Source of the DNA: a virus
IMG/VR virus record: IMGVR_UViG_3300031566_000157
Span: 1-39,117 of that record
DNA length: 39,117 nucleotides
Strand: one strand, 5' to 3'
Shown: positions 3,076-23,878 of the stretch, in pieces
Layout of the letters: each line of letters opens with the position of its first letter
How positions within the stretch are numbered: the first letter of the stretch is position 1
Translations under genes and position numbers: made by a program
The notes under the pieces: generated by a model
Seen by the model: the letters and a program-made list of their open reading frames with translations, nothing else
Told to the model about the DNA's origin: nothing
The model's database searches: none

Positions 3076-4398
3076 TTAAATCTCTCCTACATCAATGGAT
3101 GGGTCGAAAAAGAGCACGTCAGCAGACTTTGCCACCCCTACCCTTTGCACCTGGTCCCCTGTTTCTGTTGGTGCAGTAGAACTCATTGCTCCAGGAGTAA
3201 CACTTGTATAGATCATTGCTCCAGTAAAATTCCAATTATCATCACGACAATATCCTTTGACAAGCATTAGGCAAGTTTCCCCATCTGCTTTTGTTTCTAA
3301 GGCAATTCTTAATCCCGGCATAGTAGCCGCTGTGTCCGCATCAGTTTTCTTCCATTCTTTGTCAGTCCAGTTAAAATATAGTAAATCTCCAAAAACTACC
3401 GATTCACCAACTGGTTGACTATCTATTTCACCCGAATAAGTATGATCAGAGCCTAAAGCATTAGTAAAAATTAAAGTTGTATCGGTATTTTGGGCATGTT
3501 TTTTACTAATAGCATCTTCAAGATTAGCTTCCGTAATTGTGGCCGTTGTCCTGACTGATTGCCCAGAAGCTGAAGGTACAGATAATCCAGTCAATTTATG
3601 TGTCCCCATATTAACATCGGCGGTCATAGTTCCAAGAGTGGTATCTGCTCCCGCTGCATGCTTTTTTGTTACTGCGTCTGCCACATCAGCGTCAGTATTA
3701 GTCCCCTGCTCTATAATTCCGGTAGCATTATTAATCTTTGCAATTCTACCGGCAGTAAAATCCCCTGTCTTAATTACTTCATCAACTAGAATCGCCTTAA
3801 TCTCTGCATCGGTATCTACGGTTGGATCGGCTTCTTCTGCAAATTCTAAGGCAGTTTCCCCAGCATTTATTCTAACAAACTTCAATGAACTACCGGTATA
3901 ATTAGCAGGGGTATCAGCCAAATCAGTAAATTTCAAGGCAGCAAGTTCGTCAGAATCAATTATATCTACAACATAGATAGTCTCTACTTTCGATAATGTG
4001 TTTATCTCTGTTTTAAGATAATAAAGCGATAAATCAATGCCTAATTCTGCCTTTGTTTGCCACATCATTTCACCGGCAATATAGGCAGCGATATCATTAT
4101 TTACAGGATCATTAGAAAATTTTAACCCGGCTTCGGGTATCTGTATTGTGCCCCCGGTAGTCCCATTCTTCGGGTATAGGTCATCTCTTTTTGAATGGAC
4201 CAGCAAAGCTCCCAGATCATCGATTATCTGCCTCATTTCATTAGTATCTTCCAGGGCATCGGCTTTATCAGCAGTACCCACATAAAAATTGGCCCCGGAT
4301 TCCTGTGTATACTTGTAGTATGCGGTAAAGCCATTTGCGCTAAACACCAGTAAGATAATCGATAATATTATCCCTAATAATTTTTTATTCTTAAACAT
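3076..4398 (-). CDS. Tail-fibre-like protein with N-terminal signal sequence
   Basis: The 440-residue protein begins with a hydrophobic signal or anchor (residues about 6-24, KLLGIILSIILLVFSANGF). The rest reads like a phage tail fibre or appendage: FTDLADTPANYTG.SLKFVRINAGETALEF, then two repeats built on TDADVADAVTKKHA..ADTTL and EANLEDAISKKHA..TDTTL, then a beta-rich C-terminal region (about 310-440) that could be a receptor-binding or fibre-tip domain. The mix of export signal and fibre-type sequence is unusual, because virion fibres normally assemble in the cytoplasm. The ribosome binding site (AGAGGTGATTTGAA) supports the ATG chosen. It lies downstream of the detached hub domain. Confidence 0.6.
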   Translation of the reverse strand: MFKNKKLLGIILSIILLVFSANGFTAYYKYTQESGANFYVGTADKADALEDTNEMRQIIDDLGALLVHSKRDDLYPKNGTTGGTIQIPEAGLKFSNDPVNNDIAAYIAGEMMWQTKAELGIDLSLYYLKTEINTLSKVETIYVVDIIDSDELAALKFTDLADTPANYTGSSLKFVRINAGETALEFAEEADPTVDTDAEIKAILVDEVIKTGDFTAGRIAKINNATGIIEQGTNTDADVADAVTKKHAAGADTTLGTMTADVNMGTHKLTGLSVPSASGQSVRTTATITEANLEDAISKKHAQNTDTTLIFTNALGSDHTYSGEIDSQPVGESVVFGDLLYFNWTDKEWKKTDADTAATMPGLRIALETKADGETCLMLVKGYCRDDNWNFTGAMIYTSVTPGAMSSTAPTETGDQVQRVGVAKSADVLFFDPSIDVGEI

Positions 4399-4417: not shown

Positions 4418-4819
4418 TTAATCTTCTAATTCTAATATATTTGTATAATTCCCCCCACTAAATCTGAGATTAATTTTTCTTATAATCATATTTCGGCTAT
4501 CGTAATAATATTTTCCCTCTACTGCGGGGGCATAAGGAACTTTTGCCTCATCTGCAGGATAATAAGGCATTCGCTCAGATTTTTGCCGGATTGTATCTCC
4601 CACCTCGTAAGGCAGGGGGGTAGTAGTGGTTATTCTTACCTTTAGTTTTTGCTTTTTGTACTCTGCCAGATAGGTATCGGCCACTGCCTGCGCCGCGGCC
4701 TGGTCCTGGATAAGGTGGTTTCTGATGGTTAAGGTTCTCTTTCCACCGGCTGCTTCAATCTCTGCATCTGAAGCTATAGCCTCGGCAGTTATAGCGATTT
4801 TTTTTGAAGGATAGGCCAT
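4418..4819 (-). CDS. Stand-alone tail hub C-terminal domain
   Basis: The 133-residue protein reads like the last beta-rich domain of a siphovirus tail hub or baseplate protein. Features of that domain are AITAEAIASDAEIEAAGGKR, TIRNHLIQDQAAAQAVADTY, a Lys-rich strand, PLPYEVGDTI, and the closing MIIRKINLRFSGGNYTNILE. In related hub proteins this block follows a THIIVIG-type strand in the same polypeptide. Here the large hub protein upstream has that strand but then switches straight into FN3 domains. The start overlaps the stop of the preceding small gene by one base. The assignment rests on pattern recognition and would need a profile search. Confidence 0.5.
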   Translation of the reverse strand: MAYPSKKIAITAEAIASDAEIEAAGGKRTLTIRNHLIQDQAAAQAVADTYLAEYKKQKLKVRITTTTPLPYEVGDTIRQKSERMPYYPADEAKVPYAPAVEGKYYYDSRNMIIRKINLRFSGGNYTNILELED

Positions 4820-4983
4820 TATTTCTTCACCTCATCTTTTATATTTCCCGGTTTATAATTTTCAATCTCATTTAAAAGCATGTCTCTAAGAGCCTTCATA
4901 GCAAACTGACTCAGTCTATTGCCCAGTTCCTCCTGGATAAATTGGTTAAGTATCTGTTCTATTTTCTTGGCCAACTCTTCCAT
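4819..4983 (-). CDS. Small helical protein, unknown
   Basis: The ATG at 4981-4983 is preferred over an upstream TTG because AAGGAG lies nine bases before it, giving 54 residues. The peptide is amphipathic and helical (ELAKKIEQILNQFIQEELGN), with Leu/Ile spaced as in a coiled coil and a polar, Lys-rich end. Similar short helical proteins are seen among phage tail genes, but no function is known to me. Its stop overlaps the start of the detached hub-domain gene, so the two are translationally coupled. It is the first gene after the terminator at 5.0 kb. Confidence 0.55.
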   Translation of the reverse strand: MEELAKKIEQILNQFIQEELGNRLSQFAMKALRDMLLNEIENYKPGNIKDEVKK

Positions 4984-5010
4984 TAATCTGATCTCCTTCA
5001 ACTGCAATTA

Positions 5011-5065
5011 AAATAAAAAAACGCCTTAAACTCTTCTAATAATTTTAGAAAAAGCTTAAAGCGTT
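5011..5065 (-). terminator. Intrinsic terminator after caspase gene
   Basis: On the minus strand an imperfect hairpin is followed by a T-run. The outer stem pairs AACGC (5020-5024) with GCGTT (5061-5065), then TTAA (5026-5029) with TTAA (5056-5059), and the inner stem pairs TTCTAA (5034-5039) with TTAGAA (5045-5050). The T-tract corresponds to the A-run at about 5011-5020. Its design matches the units at 20.6 and 33.8 kb, and a similar leader segment (GTTAAGGCTAAC) lies just upstream. Only a weak promoter (TTAAAT with TTAAAT, near 5109-5137) can be proposed here. Confidence 0.65.
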
Positions 5066-5133
5066 AGCCTTAACTCTCCTGAACATTATTTATGTGTTCA
5101 CAGACCATATTTAATTTTTAGGATTTATTTAAT

Positions 5134-6033
5134 TTAATATTCTATTATTGAATAAGTCGAATTATCCGGATAAACTTGAACATCCTGTTGTAAGTCACTA
5201 AAATAATATTGCACCCAATCTTTTACATAAAGATACGCCTCTTGCAAGCTGACTTTGGTATCTCCGTTAGAATCTGCAGGATAATCATAATTAAAATAAC
5301 CACAACCTGTGCATAAAGCCATGGTAAATACCCCACAAGGTTTGCCGAATATTGGAATTATTTCCGCGCACTCCTGATTGTAATGGCAAGAAGTCAAAAC
5401 TTTATATTGATTAGTAGTAAGTAGCCCTTTGGATTCGGACTGAGAAAAGACATTAATAATCTCATCATTAAAAGATGTTAATTCTTCCTCTGAAATTGTT
5501 ACTCCCTCTTTGCCTTTCCCGATAAATCCTCCAGAATGACAGGTATCAAGTATGACTACTTTCGTTCCAGGTATAGCACTTAGAGCCTGCTCCAACTTAT
5601 TTATACTTATTTTTGAGAATATTGAAAATATTGGGAAATTGGAATAAAAAGGGCAAAGATAAGAAATTCCTAAAAATCTTCCTCCATGCCCGGTATAATA
5701 AAAATAGGATACATCATCATTATCTGCATCAGAAAAAGTAGAAGCAATTTCATCTAAAATCGCTTCTTTTGTTGCATCCGAATCTTTCAGCTCATTAATA
5801 ATAGAAAATTCGGTATCTAATAAACCAAATCTGCATTGGCTAAAAATTTGACGTATTCTATCTACACTATAAATTGGACTTGGCAGGTCATTTTCGCTAC
5901 CAAAATAATCTCCAATTCCTATAAGTAAAGCACGATGTACTATTTCGTTGTTAACGGACAGAGGGGGAACTACTCCTGTGCAACCAGTAATTAAAAATAT
6001 TAAAATTATAATTGATAAGACAATCTTTTTCAT
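5134..6033 (-). CDS. Caspase-family (C14) lipoprotein protease with EF-hand-like loop
   Basis: The 299-residue protein has a lipoprotein signal with lipobox LITGC (Cys18). A caspase/metacaspase-type p20 domain follows: the start strand HRALLIGIGDY (33-43), the catalytic His in YYTGHGG (His116) and the catalytic Cys in VILDTCHSGG (Cys165). Near the C-terminus DSNGDTKVSLQE (254-265) fits a 12-residue EF-hand calcium loop at positions 1, 3, 5, 9 and 12, and leads into a helix. The protein should be membrane-anchored outside the cytoplasm and possibly calcium-controlled. It overlaps the preceding gene by an ATGA junction and is followed by a terminator, so the pair looks like an accessory cassette inside the tail module. 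Substrate and role (superinfection exclusion, host envelope attack, defence) are unknown. Confidence 0.8.
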   Translation of the reverse strand: MKKIVLSIIILIFLITGCTGVVPPLSVNNEIVHRALLIGIGDYFGSENDLPSPIYSVDRIRQIFSQCRFGLLDTEFSIINELKDSDATKEAILDEIASTFSDADNDDVSYFYYTGHGGRFLGISYLCPFYSNFPIFSIFSKISINKLEQALSAIPGTKVVILDTCHSGGFIGKGKEGVTISEEELTSFNDEIINVFSQSESKGLLTTNQYKVLTSCHYNQECAEIIPIFGKPCGVFTMALCTGCGYFNYDYPADSNGDTKVSLQEAYLYVKDWVQYYFSDLQQDVQVYPDNSTYSIIEY

Positions 6034-6533
6034 TTAGATTTATCCTTCGGATTTTTCAAAATTATTTCTTCTACTTTTTTATTATATAACAAAAAATCAG
6101 GACAATCCAATTTCAATTCATCCAATATATATTTCAAGGTCTTGCGAATTATTTTTGCTTCGCTTGATGGATTATACAATTCACCGATTTTTAAAGCTAA
6201 AGCCATTCTTCTTTCGGTATTGGTAAAATAACTGTATTGATTATAGTCAAATGGAATTATCTTATCATCTTTAAATTCATATAATGGAAAACTCCACCAC
6301 GTTTTTTGTTCTCTAACCATGAACACTTTACCTTCTATTTCTTTAGTGTCGTTTCCTTTATTGTCTTTTTTGTAAATTATTTTTAGTGTATCTTTTATAA
6401 ACTTATCATCATTTGATAGTTCAATAATTTCGTCATAGCAAAGAAATTCTTTGTCAGATATCCCTCTAATAATATTATGTTCAATGTCATCTTTCTCAAA
6501 ATTCATTCTCGTAATTTTTAAATATAGTTTCAT
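6030..6533 (-). CDS. Unknown protein coupled to the caspase gene
   Basis: The 167-residue protein is not recognised. It is rich in Lys, Asp, Glu and aromatics, has no signal peptide or membrane segment, and contains a Trp/Phe-rich core (TWWSFPLYEF) followed by helical segments. The ATG has a strong ribosome binding site (AAGGAGGAATATAAATT). Its stop codon overlaps the caspase start as ATGA, so the two are probably made in fixed ratio. A regulator or inhibitor of the protease is possible, but nothing in the sequence shows this. Confidence 0.5.
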   Translation of the reverse strand: MKLYLKITRMNFEKDDIEHNIIRGISDKEFLCYDEIIELSNDDKFIKDTLKIIYKKDNKGNDTKEIEGKVFMVREQKTWWSFPLYEFKDDKIIPFDYNQYSYFTNTERRMALALKIGELYNPSSEAKIIRKTLKYILDELKLDCPDFLLYNKKVEEIILKNPKDKSK

Positions 6534-6548
6534 AATTTATATTCCTCC

Positions 6549-8939
6549 TTACCACCCTGCATCGAGCCACCAATGTCCCCAAGCATTATCAGGCGCACCA
6601 ATATAGCCTACAAATCTAGGGTTGTTTCCCCCATCAGGATTATAAGCCATTTCTCCAGCCGAAGCAGCAGGTGCGGAAGCCACATCTGGAAAATTAAACG
6701 TACCTGTGCTTTTACACGCGAAAATATATGAACCAGGATTAAAAGAAACAAAATCTCCATCCGAATATAACCTAACACCATTACTAAAATACATAGATAA
6801 TAAGGCAAGTCCACTTTTATAAAAATTTAATATATTACTACCAGCATCATACAAACGAATTCCACTTTGCACAAAAAGAATATTTCCTTGGCCTGAATAA
6901 CCGATGTTAAAATTTATTCCACTAATTGTTCCTGCTTTAATATTATCTGCAGTAAGTAAACTTGTTTTTATATAACCGCCTTCAATGATTGTTGTGCCTA
7001 ATCCAGTTAATGTAATAGAACCTGCATAAATCTTTCCACCATCAATATAAGTTATAGCTCCACTTTTCGCCCAGGCCTCAATATTAGTTTTATAGTCGCC
7101 ACTTTGAAACATTCGTGCTAATGCATCGCTGCCCAATTTACTTATTAAAACTTCACTTGCTCCTATCTTATCTGCTGTTATCGCTCCTGCCTGTAAAGCA
7201 TTAGTATAAATAGAATTAGCCGCTATTAAGTCAGCAGTAATGGCATAAGCTACGATATCATTGGTTCCCGCCTTGTTAGGCGCTATACTATCAGCGGTAG
7301 GGGTAGAGGTAGCCCCTTCTATCCCGGTCTGGGTAAAGGCTTTGATCCGATAACGATAATATTTGGTATAGGTCAATAGCAAATCCAACCACATAGTTGC
7401 ATCAGTTCTAACCCTTTCAGTCCATTCTCCGGTCCAGGTTGTTCCATTATCACTTTCCTGCCTTTCCACTACATAACCAGCAATATTATCCTCAGTCGCT
7501 ATATTCCACACGATCTTGATACCACAAAGTAAAGCAGTCGCTGTAGCTCCGGTTATTTGTGCTGGAGTTGTTGAATCGGTGGCCGTAACTTTAGTTACCT
7601 CCGTGCTCCAGTTGCTTCGGTTATTATAAATGTCCACCGCTCTTATTTGAACCCCATATTCGACTCCCGGCTCCAATCCATACCAGATAAAGGAAATATC
7701 GATAGTGGAGACCTCGGTAAAATCAGCATCTCCAACCTTCTTAATTCTTAACTCATAATGTCCAAAATCGCTCTCAGTATTGGCTTCCCATTCAGCTGTA
7801 ATCCAGGATAAACTCGCTTGAGTAGCTGATCCCAGACCAGTAGATAGAGCCAAACCAACTGGAACATCAGGGGCAATTTCGTCCTCTCCTATAATCCTGT
7901 CCCTTTCCTCTCCTATAACTATTATGTGGGTATAAGTTTCATCTATATTTTCTTCTACATCTTCAATCTTGGTTTCGTAGTCTGAAATTGTACTGACCGG
8001 GGATCCTACACTCGGCTTCGGTTTGAAGATAGGATTGCCGGCATAATCAAAATAGAATCTATACTGCACTACTTCCGATAATAAAGTAATAGCTTTTAAA
8101 GAGCTAGTCCCGGCAGCAAACCATACTCTATCGATGGTCTTTCCGGTGGCAGTACAATATCCGCTGGCTAACCAGGTGTTCCTCTCAGTCTCATTAGCGA
8201 ATATTCCAGCAGCTAATAAAATATCGGCTACAACATTTTCTATACTTTGGGTCTGAAAATAGTAGATTTTGAGGTTATTCGTTCCAGCGAAATCCGGTAT
8301 TCTCCGTGGAGTAAAGACTAATTGGTTATTGTGCCAATCGTAAGACCAATCGGTATTCTCATAGATCTCTTCCAGATTGCTCCCATCATAAGGAGAAGTG
8401 GAATCCAAAAAGACCCGATAAACTCCTTTGCAGTCGGCTTCCATGTCATATCTTATTTTATTAGCTATCGTATTATAGGTAATATTGGTTCCCCAGTAAG
8501 TGTTAGGAGAATATAGTTTAAAATCCAGAACCATCCTCATCAGGCAACGTCCGGTTATGGTGCAGATATCCTGGCCTGCTCTTTTGCCTAATTTAAAATC
8601 GTCTACTCTGCCCAGGATAAGTTGATAAGGATAATTGGTTTCGTTCTTTCTTATCCCTGCATATAACTTTATTTTTCTGCCTTGCGATAACCATCCATAA
8701 TAAGATGAGCCTAAATTTACAGGATCGTATCTATTATTAGTATTAAGGCAGGTTATATTAAAAGAGTAGCTACAGAATTTCGCTACTCGATTTTCTTCGT
8801 TAGTATTTATGCTATACGTTTTTATATCCGGTAACTCTTGGAAGTCCCCTTCACCATCAGAATCGATCTCTACTTTCGATATAACCAAAATTGAATCCTG
8901 CTCAAAATCCTCTACGGTTAGAGGAGCAATATCCTGCAT
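6549..8939 (-). CDS. Tail hub/tip protein with FN3 domains
   Basis: The ATG at 8937-8939 is chosen over an upstream TTG because it forms a TGATG junction with the preceding gene and has GGAGGT nine bases upstream, giving 796 residues. The N-terminal part (about 1-350) resembles tail hub proteins: beta-barrel segments (KIKLYAGI, YQLILGRVDDF), then SLKAITLLSEVVQYRFYFD and THIIVIGEERD. Two fibronectin type III domains follow (about 355-550, starting APDVPVGLALS and TTPAQITGATAT). A region typical of fibre attachment comes next (AITADLIAANSI, AGAITADKIGASEV, KTSLLTADNIKAGTISG), and then a Gly/Ser-rich tip. It lies right after the distal tail protein. The expected terminal hub domain is missing here and appears as a separate gene at 4.4-4.8 kb. 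Confidence 0.75.
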   Translation of the reverse strand: MQDIAPLTVEDFEQDSILVISKVEIDSDGEGDFQELPDIKTYSINTNEENRVAKFCSYSFNITCLNTNNRYDPVNLGSSYYGWLSQGRKIKLYAGIRKNETNYPYQLILGRVDDFKLGKRAGQDICTITGRCLMRMVLDFKLYSPNTYWGTNITYNTIANKIRYDMEADCKGVYRVFLDSTSPYDGSNLEEIYENTDWSYDWHNNQLVFTPRRIPDFAGTNNLKIYYFQTQSIENVVADILLAAGIFANETERNTWLASGYCTATGKTIDRVWFAAGTSSLKAITLLSEVVQYRFYFDYAGNPIFKPKPSVGSPVSTISDYETKIEDVEENIDETYTHIIVIGEERDRIIGEDEIAPDVPVGLALSTGLGSATQASLSWITAEWEANTESDFGHYELRIKKVGDADFTEVSTIDISFIWYGLEPGVEYGVQIRAVDIYNNRSNWSTEVTKVTATDSTTPAQITGATATALLCGIKIVWNIATEDNIAGYVVERQESDNGTTWTGEWTERVRTDATMWLDLLLTYTKYYRYRIKAFTQTGIEGATSTPTADSIAPNKAGTNDIVAYAITADLIAANSIYTNALQAGAITADKIGASEVLISKLGSDALARMFQSGDYKTNIEAWAKSGAITYIDGGKIYAGSITLTGLGTTIIEGGYIKTSLLTADNIKAGTISGINFNIGYSGQGNILFVQSGIRLYDAGSNILNFYKSGLALLSMYFSNGVRLYSDGDFVSFNPGSYIFACKSTGTFNFPDVASAPAASAGEMAYNPDGGNNPRFVGYIGAPDNAWGHWWLDAGW

Positions 8940-9295
8940 CAACTTCCCACCTCCACACAAGTTGCTGAAACTTCATAGTAACCCGGATAACTTCTGCTTA
9001 GTTTAGGCCTAATTGGATTTCTAAATTTAACCGTATGGTCTTCTAAATAATCTTCTTCTTCTAATTGTAAATTTAAATCCCCGGATAAATCAAAGATATC
9101 CAATAAGGCGTTCTTTTCAGTCTTAGTTAAGCACAGGAAAGTCAGACCATAAGTCTGATAAGTATTAACCGCCTCCTGCATTTTGATGTTTCCAGCAATC
9201 ATCAAATGCTCAGACTTGGTTTTTATCCTATCAGGTGCTATATTTACATAGTGAAAAATTGTCTCTGAATCTTTAGGTCCTATCTTTATATCCAT
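8939..9295 (-). CDS. Distal tail protein-like
   Basis: The 118-residue protein lies between the tape measure and the tail hub, where siphoviruses encode the distal tail protein. It is beta-rich, with a middle segment YGLTFLCLTKTEKNALLDIF and a closing strand YYEVSATCVEV, as in short Dit- or gp19-like tail proteins. The ATG has GGAGGAATAAA upstream, and that sequence overlaps the tape-measure stop. The stop overlaps the hub start as TGATG. The assignment leans on gene order. Confidence 0.6.
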   Translation of the reverse strand: MDIKIGPKDSETIFHYVNIAPDRIKTKSEHLMIAGNIKMQEAVNTYQTYGLTFLCLTKTEKNALLDIFDLSGDLNLQLEEEDYLEDHTVKFRNPIRPKLSRSYPGYYEVSATCVEVGS

Positions 9296-19425: not shown

Positions 19426-20553
19426 CTATACTCCAAATGAAGACCACTTCTTTTTGGGTTTATTTTCATCATCTCCACCATCATCTTGGCCTTCAATGGT
19501 CTTTTTTATTCCTTTATCTTTTTCCAGGGTCTCCAGTCTCTTGCTAAGTTCGGATATGCCTTTATCCTTTTCCTCCAAGTCTTTCCCCAGTTTTTCTATA
19601 GTCTGATCCTTCTCTTCCAGTTTCTTTTCTAATCTCTTGGCAATATCACTTACTTCATCTAAAGCATTTTTAAACTCTTTATCGGCATCTTTTCCTTCGG
19701 TGGCATCAGATTTTTTAAGTTTTATCTGATCTCCTTCAGGCAAAAGATCGTTCAAGGCTTTAACCACATTTTGAAGCTCGTTAAAGGCTTTAATTACGCT
19801 TTTAACTTTTCCTACAGTATCTTTGGAAAGTGCTTTCCCAGATTTCTCTACGTTCTTATCTTCTTCTTTCTTATCTTCTTCTTTCTTAACTTCTTCTTTT
19901 TTTTTGGCTGGATAGCCATAACCATAACTGGCATATTTAGCCAGTATTCCAACCGCATCTTTAAGGTCATCTGGAAAATCCTTTTTATATTTATCTATTA
20001 ATTTCAATGCCCCTTTTATAGCATTCAAGGCTTTATCAGAAAGTTCAGCTTTCTCAAGCTCGAATTCCTCGGGAGCAAAGCTAACTTCCTCATCAAAGTA
20101 TGAATCCAATAAATCTTTTAATTCTTTATTCATGTCCATTCCATTCACCTCCATTTCGGATTTTGACAGATAGAAAGTATCGCTGTGCTTAAATCCATCC
20201 TCGGTTTCGGTAATCTTTGAATAAGAGCAAGAGATTGGACTGCCGGCAAGTACTTTATCTTCTCCTCCCCGTGGTTTATAAAAAGAAAAATGAAAGTCCT
20301 GCAAGTTCTTAATCTCTTCTCCATTCAAAATTATTTTTGTTTCTTTGATGGTCCCATCACTTTCTATCGAGATACTTATTTTTTTATCATCCTTCTTCAC
20401 AATCAAGAATTTTCTCTTCTGGATATCAGAACTATCTTGATACTTGTCAAATAGTTCCTGCATATCCCTTTTAAAGAATAGAAACTTCTTTCTAGTTGCT
20501 GGCAAATCGGTAAAACTTATCTCACTTGGTTCTATATTCTTTAAATTTGCCAT
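19426..20553 (-). CDS. Capsid scaffold-like protein
   Basis: The ATG at 20551-20553 is preferred over an upstream GTG because AGGGGG lies six bases before it, giving 375 residues. The N-terminal half is a mixed domain of unknown fold (FSFYKPRGGEDKVLAGSPIS). The centre has a Lys/Glu low-complexity run. The C-terminus is a long coiled coil (DIAKRLEKKLEEKDQTIEKL and the following repeats) with an acidic end. Coiled coil, high charge and position between protease and capsid genes are typical of scaffolding proteins, which are removed by the maturation protease. The gene is preceded by the promoter-terminator unit at 20.6-20.7 kb. Confidence 0.65.
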   Translation of the reverse strand: MANLKNIEPSEISFTDLPATRKKFLFFKRDMQELFDKYQDSSDIQKRKFLIVKKDDKKISISIESDGTIKETKIILNGEEIKNLQDFHFSFYKPRGGEDKVLAGSPISCSYSKITETEDGFKHSDTFYLSKSEMEVNGMDMNKELKDLLDSYFDEEVSFAPEEFELEKAELSDKALNAIKGALKLIDKYKKDFPDDLKDAVGILAKYASYGYGYPAKKKEEVKKEEDKKEEDKNVEKSGKALSKDTVGKVKSVIKAFNELQNVVKALNDLLPEGDQIKLKKSDATEGKDADKEFKNALDEVSDIAKRLEKKLEEKDQTIEKLGKDLEEKDKGISELSKRLETLEKDKGIKKTIEGQDDGGDDENKPKKKWSSFGV

Positions 20554-20584
20554 CGATTGCCCCCTCACTTTGACCTAGCATCCA

Positions 20585-20705: not shown

Positions 20706-20735
20706 ATATTATCATAAAAAATTGGTTACTGTCAA
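20706..20735 (-). promoter_or_regulatory. Promoter before scaffold-capsid genes
   Basis: On the minus strand a perfect TTGACA (20730-20735) overlaps the TGA stop of the large fusion gene. An A/T-rich -10 follows: TAATAT at 20706-20711 (18-base spacer) or GATAAT at 20708-20713 (16-base spacer). Transcription would begin near 20699 and meet the terminator hairpin within about 110 bases. Confidence 0.6.
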
Positions 20736-23700
20736 ATATGCATAGCTCGGCCCGCTAATGAATAGCCAGTTATCGTGCCATCCTTTATTCCTTTCCAGAC
20801 TTTTTCATCTAATACTCGGGCGATTAATAACCAACTCCCCTTTTTTATTTTTTGATTATTTATCTCAAAATCCACTGGTGCAATATAAATTTCCAATACT
20901 TTGGTATCAATGTATTTACCTTTATGGTTAACCTTAAATTTTTGCGGGCCTTCCATGTAAGAATAAAGAGCTTTTCTTATCTCTTCTTCATTAGTAGTAT
21001 CACCCTGGCTATCTACTTCATTCGGAGCATAGACGACCCCGCATACAATATGCTCATCTTCTTTCTTAGAGATATCAAATATGGGAATAAATTTATTAAA
21101 TTCATAATGCTTAGATTTTCCAGCCCCAGCTTCTTCCTTGAGCTTAGATACCATCCAGACTCTTTCACCCTTCTTCCCGGCTTCGGTTATTGGTACATAG
21201 GCAAAAAGGTAAATCCCCTCTGGTATCACCTCTATATTTTTTATTTTTAGTTTCTTAGCATGATCATCCTGAGGTTCAATTGCGTTCCAATCAAAACCAT
21301 CAAGGATTAGCATAGCCCCATATTTATTAGTGGTAGCTCCTACTGCTCCTGGTGGGAATATCTCAATCTTATTCCTACCGGCTTTCATCCATGAAACGGG
21401 ACCTCTAATCGTCTCTGCCTCCGGTTCTTCTACTCTTGGCACCTTCCAACCAAATCTGAGTTTGCCGCCTTCTTTCAACCTCTTTAATTTATCTAAACCA
21501 GTAAGGTTTCCGATCATTATCTCTCCACCTTCAAAATAATCATCGCCTTTTCTGACCATTCTTAAATCAATATGGGCTCCTTGCTCACCTATTGCACCCT
21601 TTAATAGCATCTTTAATTTAGTCGGATTGGCTCTGGATCTTACTGCTTCAGCGGACACCTTCTTAAGTTCTGAAATTTTATCTTCCTCTATCCCCATTAT
21701 GTGAAGCTGCAGAACCCCTTTGCCGGTATTTCCTATCACATAATCTATATTCCCTTCCTCCGCTTTCTGTAACGTACCCTTTTCTCTTAGAATTTCTCTC
21801 TCTTTTTCCCAGGCTTCCTCGTCATCAAATTCGTGTTTTTGGTACCAGCTGTCGGGCATATTACAAATCCCGCCTACCGGCTCTTCATCTCCACATATCA
21901 GACAACGCGGGTGTCCGTTGGGATGGGTATATTTAGCTGCTTTAAACTCGTGAATCTTTCCTGCTAAAGGTTTCTTCTTATTTTCATTAATAACGGCTGT
22001 CTCCTTCCCATATTCTTCTGTTTGCTTATCTGATAATTTCTTTTCCATCCCTTCATCTTTATAGAATTCTCTCTTTAATTCAGCCCAGATATTTGGATTT
22101 CTATTATCCCCAAATTTCTTTGCTGCTATTCCATCTTTTACTTCTTTAACAGAGATTATTTCACCCTTACCATCACCGGTTGTGGCCCATTCCTTGAAAT
22201 GTTTCTCGCAAAACCAGGCATGGCCTATTCCCTCAGCCCATAAGCATTCATAAACGGGAGGATTAGAGCATTCCATACATTGATCTCTCTTATGCTGTGC
22301 CTTCTGTAATATATTCGCACGTTCAGCTATCCCTATCACCTGCTTAGCAAAATAAGGCTCTTTTCGGTCCTTATCAATATCCAATACCCTTGGTCCTAGC
22401 CATTGCAATTTATCTTCTTGAGGTATAATTTCTTCAATGCCTATAGTCAATATATCTCCTACGTTAGCATTTATCTTGGTATTAAAGGTCTTGCCTAAGT
22501 CAATATATTTCTTACCTTTGAATTCGATCAGATTAGTAAATTTACTGTCTCCGGGCAGCAACCCGCAATGATAGTTATAACCACCGGCCCGGTTAGGAAT
22601 TTTCTTAATGGCCATTACCTTTATCTCTGCTTCTATCTTTATCTTGGCCCAACCTTCAATACTCCCATCAGTATCCCAGATACTATTTAGATCCTTAACC
22701 ATGATGCCTTCGCTTTGAGGCAACCTAGATAATTTTTTAAACTGAGCTTCTAACTCTTTGCCATCTTTAACTATTATAAAATTAGTCAAGTCAAAATGGG
22801 GATCACCCTTTAGGTATTTACTATAAAACTTCTCTAACTGTTCTCTCCTCTCTTTTAGCGGTTTAATATGCAGATCTTCTTTCCAGTAAGGCAAATCGAA
22901 TATAGTAGCCTTTATAATATCCTTTTCTTCCAACACCGGCTCATCACTCATTAAAGTCATTAGCTTAATACGGGGTAAGGCCTTACCGTCTCTCTCGATA
23001 CCCAAGCCAAAATCAAGAATGAAATCCTCGGATATCTTCTGTAATACATTAACTAATTCTTTAAGTTGTTTAGTCCTATCTTTATCCCCTTCAGTTTTTA
23101 GCCTTAGTTTATCTCCCAGCTTTTCCGCTACACATCTAAAGGCATTAAGTTTTTCCTCCACGTCCAGAGGAAACCTATCCTTAGCCCAGTTTTCAATCTG
23201 GGAATATTCAAATGCTTCAGTAATTCTGGCCATCGTGGGCTTAGGTGGGATAAAAGTTCCGAAGGGTTTAAGGTTATCGGCTTTTTTGATTTTAGCCACC
23301 TTGATAATGGCTATAGCAGTGTTGTCTCCATGGTCGACCATTTTAATTTCATCATTTTTATCGAATAATGCTTTGAAATCATCTATTTTAATAAACTCCT
23401 GTTTATGTGTGGGATCAAGCCTCTTGCCCAGAGGACTAATAAATATAATCTTATTATTAGACACCCGGGTAGCTTCCTTAATAGTTTTACCGGGATTCTT
23501 TAAATGTTCTAATATATGAAGGCCGATAACATTACAGAAAAAATTATCCGCATAAGGTAACTTATCTTTTTCCAGATCAAGTTTTTTAACGGCCAAGCCT
23601 TTCTTTTTACACATATCCAGAGCTATATCATTATTATCTACTCCATCCACCTGGTAATTATAATAATCCGAGTTTATCAAAGCCTGCATCACTCGGCCGG

Positions 23701-23878
23701 TCCCGCAACCCAGATCTAGTATTGTCTTACCCTCTAAGTTTTTGGCCATCTCTGCAAAGTCATAAATAAAGTTCTGCTTCCATTCATCCAGGCCCTCATA
23801 GTATTCGTGGTCACCTTTGGCAAGATTAATTATTTTATGGATAATTTTTCCATTCTCTAACCCATGTTTTATTTCCAA
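20732..23878 (-). CDS. Fusion: methyltransferase, ATP-dependent ligase, LigD-PE-like region, XkdF protease
   Basis: The 1048-residue protein starts at TTG (23876-23878), set by AGGAGG eight bases upstream. Residues 1-195 are a class I methyltransferase (ILDLGCGTG 53-61, acidic D81). About 205-505 is an ATP-dependent DNA ligase: Lys243 in EEKLNAFR (motif I, usually KxDGxR), TIFDLPY 325-331 then a PLKERREQLEK helix, EGIMVK 390-395 (motif IV) and WAKIK 410-414 (motif V), then an OB-fold-like part. The motif III glutamate is not evident. About 530-675 holds two Cys/His clusters (CMEC 534-537; CLIC 659-662). About 710-915 resembles the LigD 3'-phosphoesterase: HIDLR 769-773 and PPGAVGATT 842-850. 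About 930-1046 is an XkdF-like prohead protease (VCGVVYAPNEVDSQGD, IKDGTITGYSLAG). The protease may free the parts. Confidence 0.75.
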   Translation of the reverse strand: MEIKHGLENGKIIHKIINLAKGDHEYYEGLDEWKQNFIYDFAEMAKNLEGKTILDLGCGTGRVMQALINSDYYNYQVDGVDNNDIALDMCKKKGLAVKKLDLEKDKLPYADNFFCNVIGLHILEHLKNPGKTIKEATRVSNNKIIFISPLGKRLDPTHKQEFIKIDDFKALFDKNDEIKMVDHGDNTAIAIIKVAKIKKADNLKPFGTFIPPKPTMARITEAFEYSQIENWAKDRFPLDVEEKLNAFRCVAEKLGDKLRLKTEGDKDRTKQLKELVNVLQKISEDFILDFGLGIERDGKALPRIKLMTLMSDEPVLEEKDIIKATIFDLPYWKEDLHIKPLKERREQLEKFYSKYLKGDPHFDLTNFIIVKDGKELEAQFKKLSRLPQSEGIMVKDLNSIWDTDGSIEGWAKIKIEAEIKVMAIKKIPNRAGGYNYHCGLLPGDSKFTNLIEFKGKKYIDLGKTFNTKINANVGDILTIGIEEIIPQEDKLQWLGPRVLDIDKDRKEPYFAKQVIGIAERANILQKAQHKRDQCMECSNPPVYECLWAEGIGHAWFCEKHFKEWATTGDGKGEIISVKEVKDGIAAKKFGDNRNPNIWAELKREFYKDEGMEKKLSDKQTEEYGKETAVINENKKKPLAGKIHEFKAAKYTHPNGHPRCLICGDEEPVGGICNMPDSWYQKHEFDDEEAWEKEREILREKGTLQKAEEGNIDYVIGNTGKGVLQLHIMGIEEDKISELKKVSAEAVRSRANPTKLKMLLKGAIGEQGAHIDLRMVRKGDDYFEGGEIMIGNLTGLDKLKRLKEGGKLRFGWKVPRVEEPEAETIRGPVSWMKAGRNKIEIFPPGAVGATTNKYGAMLILDGFDWNAIEPQDDHAKKLKIKNIEVIPEGIYLFAYVPITEAGKKGERVWMVSKLKEEAGAGKSKHYEFNKFIPIFDISKKEDEHIVCGVVYAPNEVDSQGDTTNEEEIRKALYSYMEGPQKFKVNHKGKYIDTKVLEIYIAPVDFEINNQKIKKGSWLLIARVLDEKVWKGIKDGTITGYSLAGRAMHI

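Follow-up and report, generated by a model that had tools for sequence, protein, structure and literature searches.

Can a phage tail hub be divided between two genes with other genes lying between them and, if so, how did the division arise? The question is raised by the window, i.e. the whole 39,117-nucleotide stretch of viral DNA that we analysed (IMG/VR record IMGVR_UViG_3300031566_000157). The initial annotation had proposed that the hub protein of the window is split, its last domain being displaced to a 133-residue protein encoded downstream. The tail region contains the following features.

12797-9297, minus strand: tape measure-like gene, 1166 aa, followed by a 118-aa gene and then by hub-N
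Between the tape measure-like gene and hub-N, minus strand: 118-aa short Dit-like gene
8939-6549, minus strand: hub ORF, 796 aa, with an ATG start at 8939
7890-8939, minus strand: hub-N itself (residues 1-350 of 796), with the THIIVIGE strand at its end
6549-7886, minus strand: apparently imported arm (residues 352-796), which continues the hub-N reading frame with two FN3 domains and a fibre part
6030-6533, minus strand: gene of a 167-aa protein, directly behind the fibre part
5134-6033, minus strand: gene of a caspase-like putative lipoprotein, in the lipoprotein slot of the cassette
5008-5066, minus strand: hairpin of an intrinsic terminator, downstream of the lipoprotein gene
4819-4983, minus strand: 54-aa ORF, the last element of the cassette
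4418-4819, minus strand: hub-C, 133 aa, the displaced C-terminal block of the hub
3076-4398, minus strand: fibre-like gene, 440 aa, a conserved boundary on the right of the region, shared by the two lineages discussed below

A listed alternative TTG start at 8960 would lengthen the hub ORF to 803 aa. The position of hub-N after the tape measure and short Dit-like genes matches the expectation for a hub, and two related contigs, L002 and L008, are ordered alike. The fibre part, the 167-residue gene, the caspase gene and the terminator lie between the two halves as initially described; the 54-aa ORF had been overlooked.

Profile searches placed both pieces in the same hub family. The 133-aa protein matches positions 562-624 of the 670 positions of the phrog_1887 profile (E 2e-7), and relatives of hub-N match positions 317-544 (E down to 4e-9) as well as phrog_177, annotated 'baseplate hub' (E 1e-4); the hub-N of the window alone reached neither profile in hmmscan. 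A weak tblastn match of the L003 hub-N, at E 10, led to the intact family through the Tsukamurella phage TIN2, whose 'tail protein' (582 aa) is a full member of phrog_1887 (E 5e-277). We then aligned each half with a profile of ten intact hubs using hhalign, with 60 column-shuffled controls per half. Hub-N scored 47.1 (best of 60 shuffles, 21.5) and hub-C scored 37.3 (best of 60 shuffles, 16.3). As the control scores are far lower, the similarity of both pieces to hubs is not due to chance. Residues 229-347 of hub-N align to residues 349-462 of the TIN2 hub, and residues 16-80 of hub-C to residues 478-541; the two TIN2 segments are thus only 15 residues apart, and intact hubs join the two strands by a loop of ~15 residues. 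The C-terminal block of the family (SxxDIxxxGGKR, a helix, GDTI and the last strand) is present in the window, but in the separate hub-C gene. No second such block was found in the 796-aa protein, which past residue 351 consists of FN3 and fibre parts, or among the other tail-region ORFs tested. At the sequence level, these alignments confirm the assignment of hub-N and hub-C to consecutive parts of one intact tail-hub family, phrog_1887, and they bear out the initial proposals that the hub is split and that the 133-residue protein is its missing C-terminal part.

Other searches yielded little. With both halves, tblastn of GenBank phages at E 0.01 gave no matches, nor did tblastn of hub-C against plasmids or a related-locus search of GTDB genomes. 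In a PDB sequence search, the sole weak hub match was 3d37 (E 0.21). The AlphaFold models of the two halves have low confidence (pLDDT 44.5 and 36.7). In a fold search, the low-confidence hub-N model matched for the most part solved folds of phage and CIS hubs and of tail tubes (Mu gp44, 1wru; 3d37; T4 gp27, 1k28); with TM scores of ~0.2, these matches are no more than supporting evidence. The search with the pLDDT-poor hub-C model gave noise and no structural match. The hubs of the Gordonia phages Newt, Kvothe and Jumbo also carry insertions; we considered them as counterparts of the split and rejected them, as they sit upstream of the break loop.

Related contigs without the caspase-containing cassette described below were found in IMG/VR by a related-locus search (L002 to L006) and with the hub-C profile (L008); two of these six contigs are near-identical. 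The window and L002 share 86% identity in their major tail proteins, which places the backbone of the window in the clade of these relatives. All six relatives already have the hub divided over two genes, with the break at the loop and residue where the window has it, instead of the single polypeptide of a phrog_1887 hub. The first gene codes for a hub-N of ~350 aa ending in VxGExxETLG, and the second for a variable domain at the N-terminus, followed by FN3-like domains and the hub-C block. In L002, L003, L004, L006 and L008, the stand-alone hub-N proteins are 58-61% identical to hub-N of the window, and the C-termini of the second-gene products are 52-57% identical to its hub-C. In L004 and L005 the hub apparently comes in three pieces, with a further break that separates the last strand (25 residues, 64% identical to residues 109-133 of the window hub-C). 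At L004:9776-10998, hub-C is broken again after PYEIGDTI, and the final strand forms the C-terminus of a separate 318-aa fibre-like ORF. At L006:7660-8240, the second hub gene has a tandem duplication of its variable N-terminal domain, the first copy being truncated.

We considered whether an intron or readthrough might join the halves. No Rfam intron was found at the break at gathering score, and no endonuclease family was recognised by Pfam or PHROG among the ORFs between the halves. The downstream hub gene has its own start in each relative, preceded by a ribosome-binding site in most of those read, and the reading-frame offset between the two hub genes varies among contigs, which argues against readthrough. 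We therefore rejected this explanation.

Both halves appear to be maintained. Their pN/pS ratios (0.17-0.37 and 0.23-0.47) denote purifying selection, and both give the same subclades, L002 with L008 and L003 with L004 and L006, the window standing apart. A hub assembled in trans is the best reading of this selection and of these congruent relationships. One could instead regard hub-C, which in the window has no fused domain and lies behind a terminator, as a decaying remnant, with the N-terminal part and its FN3 arm alone, or another protein, serving as the hub. This is very improbable, since hub-C is a full-length ORF with a ribosome-binding site, its identity to the relatives and its purifying selection are as given above, and the tail-region ORFs tested offer no alternative C-terminal block.

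Elsewhere in the window, a 1048-aa ORF (20732-23878) combines a methyltransferase-like N-terminus with a C-terminal domain matching families associated with head maturation proteases. The adjoining ORF (19426-20568) matches the rest of the same protease profile, and this is possibly another split gene.

What lies between the halves is a cassette of FN3 domains, fibre part, 167-aa gene, lipoprotein slot (occupied by the caspase-like gene here), terminator and 54-aa ORF. Contigs L021 and L022 were found with the 167-aa protein, and L023 to L025 with the FN3-fibre part. In L022, L023 and L025, a complete hub, FN3 domains and fibre are encoded in one ORF, followed, with variations, by a homologue of the 167-aa gene, a putative lipoprotein gene, a 54-aa ORF and a fibre gene; of the hub ORF, L024 contains just the last part, and the 167-aa gene is missing from L023. 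These one-gene hubs belong to another lineage, matching phrog_196 or phrog_21793, and hub-N aligns with them weakly at the profile level. The FN3 part of the window is 73-75% identical to those of L023-L025 and 53% identical to that of L022. In L021, L022, L024 and L025, the ORF that immediately follows the fibre gene encodes a protein 60-69% identical to the 167-aa protein of the window. The latter belongs to no PHROG or Pfam family and is possibly a fibre-assembly factor. The 54-aa ORF is 56-63% identical to ORFs located directly before the fibre gene in L023-L025. The N-terminus of the 440-aa fibre-like protein is 82% identical to those of L023 and L025 and 74-76% identical to those of L002 and L006. 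This gene order supports the view that the intervening block, as initially suggested, is foreign to the hub and became fused to hub-N.

The junctions are sharp. Upstream, the FN3 homology begins at hub residue ~352. Downstream, the stop codon of the 54-aa ORF overlaps the hub-C start (TAATG), and hub-C begins right behind the cassette's GAGGTG ribosome-binding site, which is carried by the 54-aa ORF, is now used by hub-C and precedes the fibre gene in L023-L025. The first residues of the window hub-C are AYP, which the relatives also have where FN3 meets hub-C. The sequence AGGAGAGG, which has four occurrences on the minus strand of the window, is found at 7890-7883, inside the hub coding sequence, right at the point of fusion and at the position of the relatives' second-gene ribosome-binding site, and is a possible fossil of it. 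A short Y-x-P-A-x-x-A-x-I repeat occurs both in the last loop of hub-C (4495-4580) and in the linker, towards the C-termini, of the unrelated-looking L022 and L025 hubs. It might mark a recombination seam; being a short repeat, it was set aside as evidence of homology between hub-C and the L025 hubs.

The exact arrangement of the window was found in one contig only, and both parental types are present in metagenome collections. The junctions might thus be assembly artefacts joining two phages. We consider the odds of this to be very small, as each join falls at a domain boundary and either keeps the reading frame or coincides exactly with a ribosome-binding site. The split as such is independent of this contig, being found in the cassette-free relatives too.

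The initial annotation had attributed the arrangement to an insertion or domain swap that displaced the hub domain. The cassette exchange is upheld by our analysis; a causal role of the cassette in the split is not, as all six cassette-free relatives are already broken at the same site, so that the break most likely predates the cassette and is most likely ancestral to the clade. The contrary scenario, in which the insertion of the cassette itself split an intact ancestral hub and the relatives were broken independently, is unlikely. It draws on the position of the window, whose hub-N lies at much the same distance from every relative and outside both subclades, so that the tree does not fix the order of events. 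The loop also tolerates insertions: residues ~215-300 of the L023 and L025 hubs comprise ~80-90 extra residues relative to L022, in the loop corresponding to the break, an in-frame counterpart of the split. However, this scenario requires two independent breaks at the same residue, and both the AYP start of hub-C and the location of AGGAGAGG speak against it, though they are suggestive only.

We thus favour, with a probability of roughly 80%, a two-piece hub with an ancestral break after the HIIVIGE strand, a fold completed in trans and an arm exchanged by cassette onto hub-N in the window. Each hub subunit would consist of two polypeptides completing one fold, broken in the loop after the conserved strand. 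Since this loop would be flanked by the end of hub-N on one side and the beginning of hub-C on the other, an adhesin arm could be attached to either piece and leave at the same place. In the relatives the arm (variable domain and FN3) is carried by hub-C, whereas in the window it is carried by the C-terminus of hub-N. The variable-domain/FN3 arm would have been replaced by the FN3-fibre-167-lipoprotein-terminator-54aa cassette of the one-gene-hub lineage. Hub-C would thereby have been reduced to a minimal partner of 133 aa, whose translation now relies on the cassette's own ribosome-binding site. Such a double exchange would account for every part. The homology and order of the halves, their common break, the presence of the cassette behind one-gene hubs, the junctions and the purifying selection are read from sequence, and from these we infer that the pieces assemble in trans, where the loop lies in the structure and which way the exchange went. 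The hub core of mycobacteriophage Douge provides an indirect parallel: its beta-fold is made of residues 42-147 and 487-560, the late segment returning to the core (PMC13033339), a layout that would agree with the co-folding of hub-N and hub-C and with an arm leaving at the broken loop.

Against this reading count the poor models of the two halves, the lack of any structural match for hub-C and the occurrence of the arrangement in a single contig. In addition, the cassette's terminator (near 5066-5008; ~20 pairs followed by seven T; z -2.7 to -2.8) lies between hub-N and hub-C, and no promoter is evident behind it. An analogous terminator is present at the same place in L023 (z -4.1), likewise before the fibre gene. 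The gene preceding it in the window codes for a caspase-like protein (Pfam Peptidase_C14, PF00656, E 9e-16; PADLOC caspase, E 7.5e-17) with an apparent signal peptide and ITGC lipobox, both identified by eye; hence, it is a putative lipoprotein. No independent relatives of this caspase were found. In L022-L025 the same slot contains transglutaminase-like or other putative lipoproteins, and in L003 a gene for a transglutaminase-like lipoprotein lies between the two hub genes. The lipoproteins of the slot are possibly morons involved in superinfection exclusion or acting on the host envelope. Like morons, the block inserts non-structural cargo (the caspase-like putative lipoprotein) among the tail genes and brings along a terminator for it; unlike them, it carries an adhesin arm fused to the hub and has no convincing promoter of its own.

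Multi-chain hubs are already known, and the division site described here differs from those of lambda and RcGTA. A hub subunit may consist of one polypeptide or of up to three, as in lambda (PMC13243795; PMC10721106), whose tail-tip proteins gpL, gpI and gpJ together are equivalent to T5 pb3 (PMC10721106). As in the window, the lambda subunit is spread over several polypeptides, with FN3 domains and the central fibre fused to one of them. However, the lambda division separates HDI from the HDII-insertion, whereas that of the window follows the HIIVIGE strand, within the C-terminal third, and the window has, unlike lambda, a cargo cassette between the pieces. In RcGTA and phage R4C, the hub and megatron proteins distribute the hub domains over two co-assembling proteins, as we propose for the window; RcGTA is divided similarly to lambda, on the N-terminal side and not at the break of the window, and the available parts of these papers note neither cargo between the halves nor arm exchange (PMC10721106, PMC10276861). 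The window has no break of the lambda/RcGTA type (between HDI and the HDII-insertion, with an Fe-S domain in the first piece), its own being near the C-terminal third, and no four-cysteine cluster was noticed by eye in hub-N. The one-gene phrog_1887 hubs (TIN2, YP_009204455; SF1 gp17, a homologue of the 'baseplate hub protein' of Streptomyces phage Samy) show homology to the two halves, in unchanged order, but in a single ORF with a 15-residue loop where the window has a gene break. Split phage proteins that reassemble are known from Aeh1 nrdA, which is interrupted by mobE, and from split gene 43 (reviewed in PMC2988022). They resemble the window in that an interrupted gene yields pieces forming a working protein, as the hub pieces presumably do; those are enzymes interrupted by homing endonucleases, whereas the window concerns a virion ring with no recognised endonuclease between the halves. 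Our literature search, of limited coverage, found no published hub division at this loop.

A conserved virion ring protein is thus divided at a place unlike that in lambda or RcGTA, apparently into three pieces in one case, and the division site coincides with the site of arm and cargo exchange between phage lineages. We tentatively suggest, at somewhat below even odds, that the loop is a standing exchange port: a permanently divided hub would allow arms and cargo to be swapped on either piece with the ring undisturbed, and the second break of L004 and L005, in a later loop, would have produced the three-piece hub. The split also explains how standard annotation can overlook the hub in such genomes. 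That the division and exchange sites coincide provides a concrete and testable path along which phages may replace their adhesins without giving up the DNA channel.
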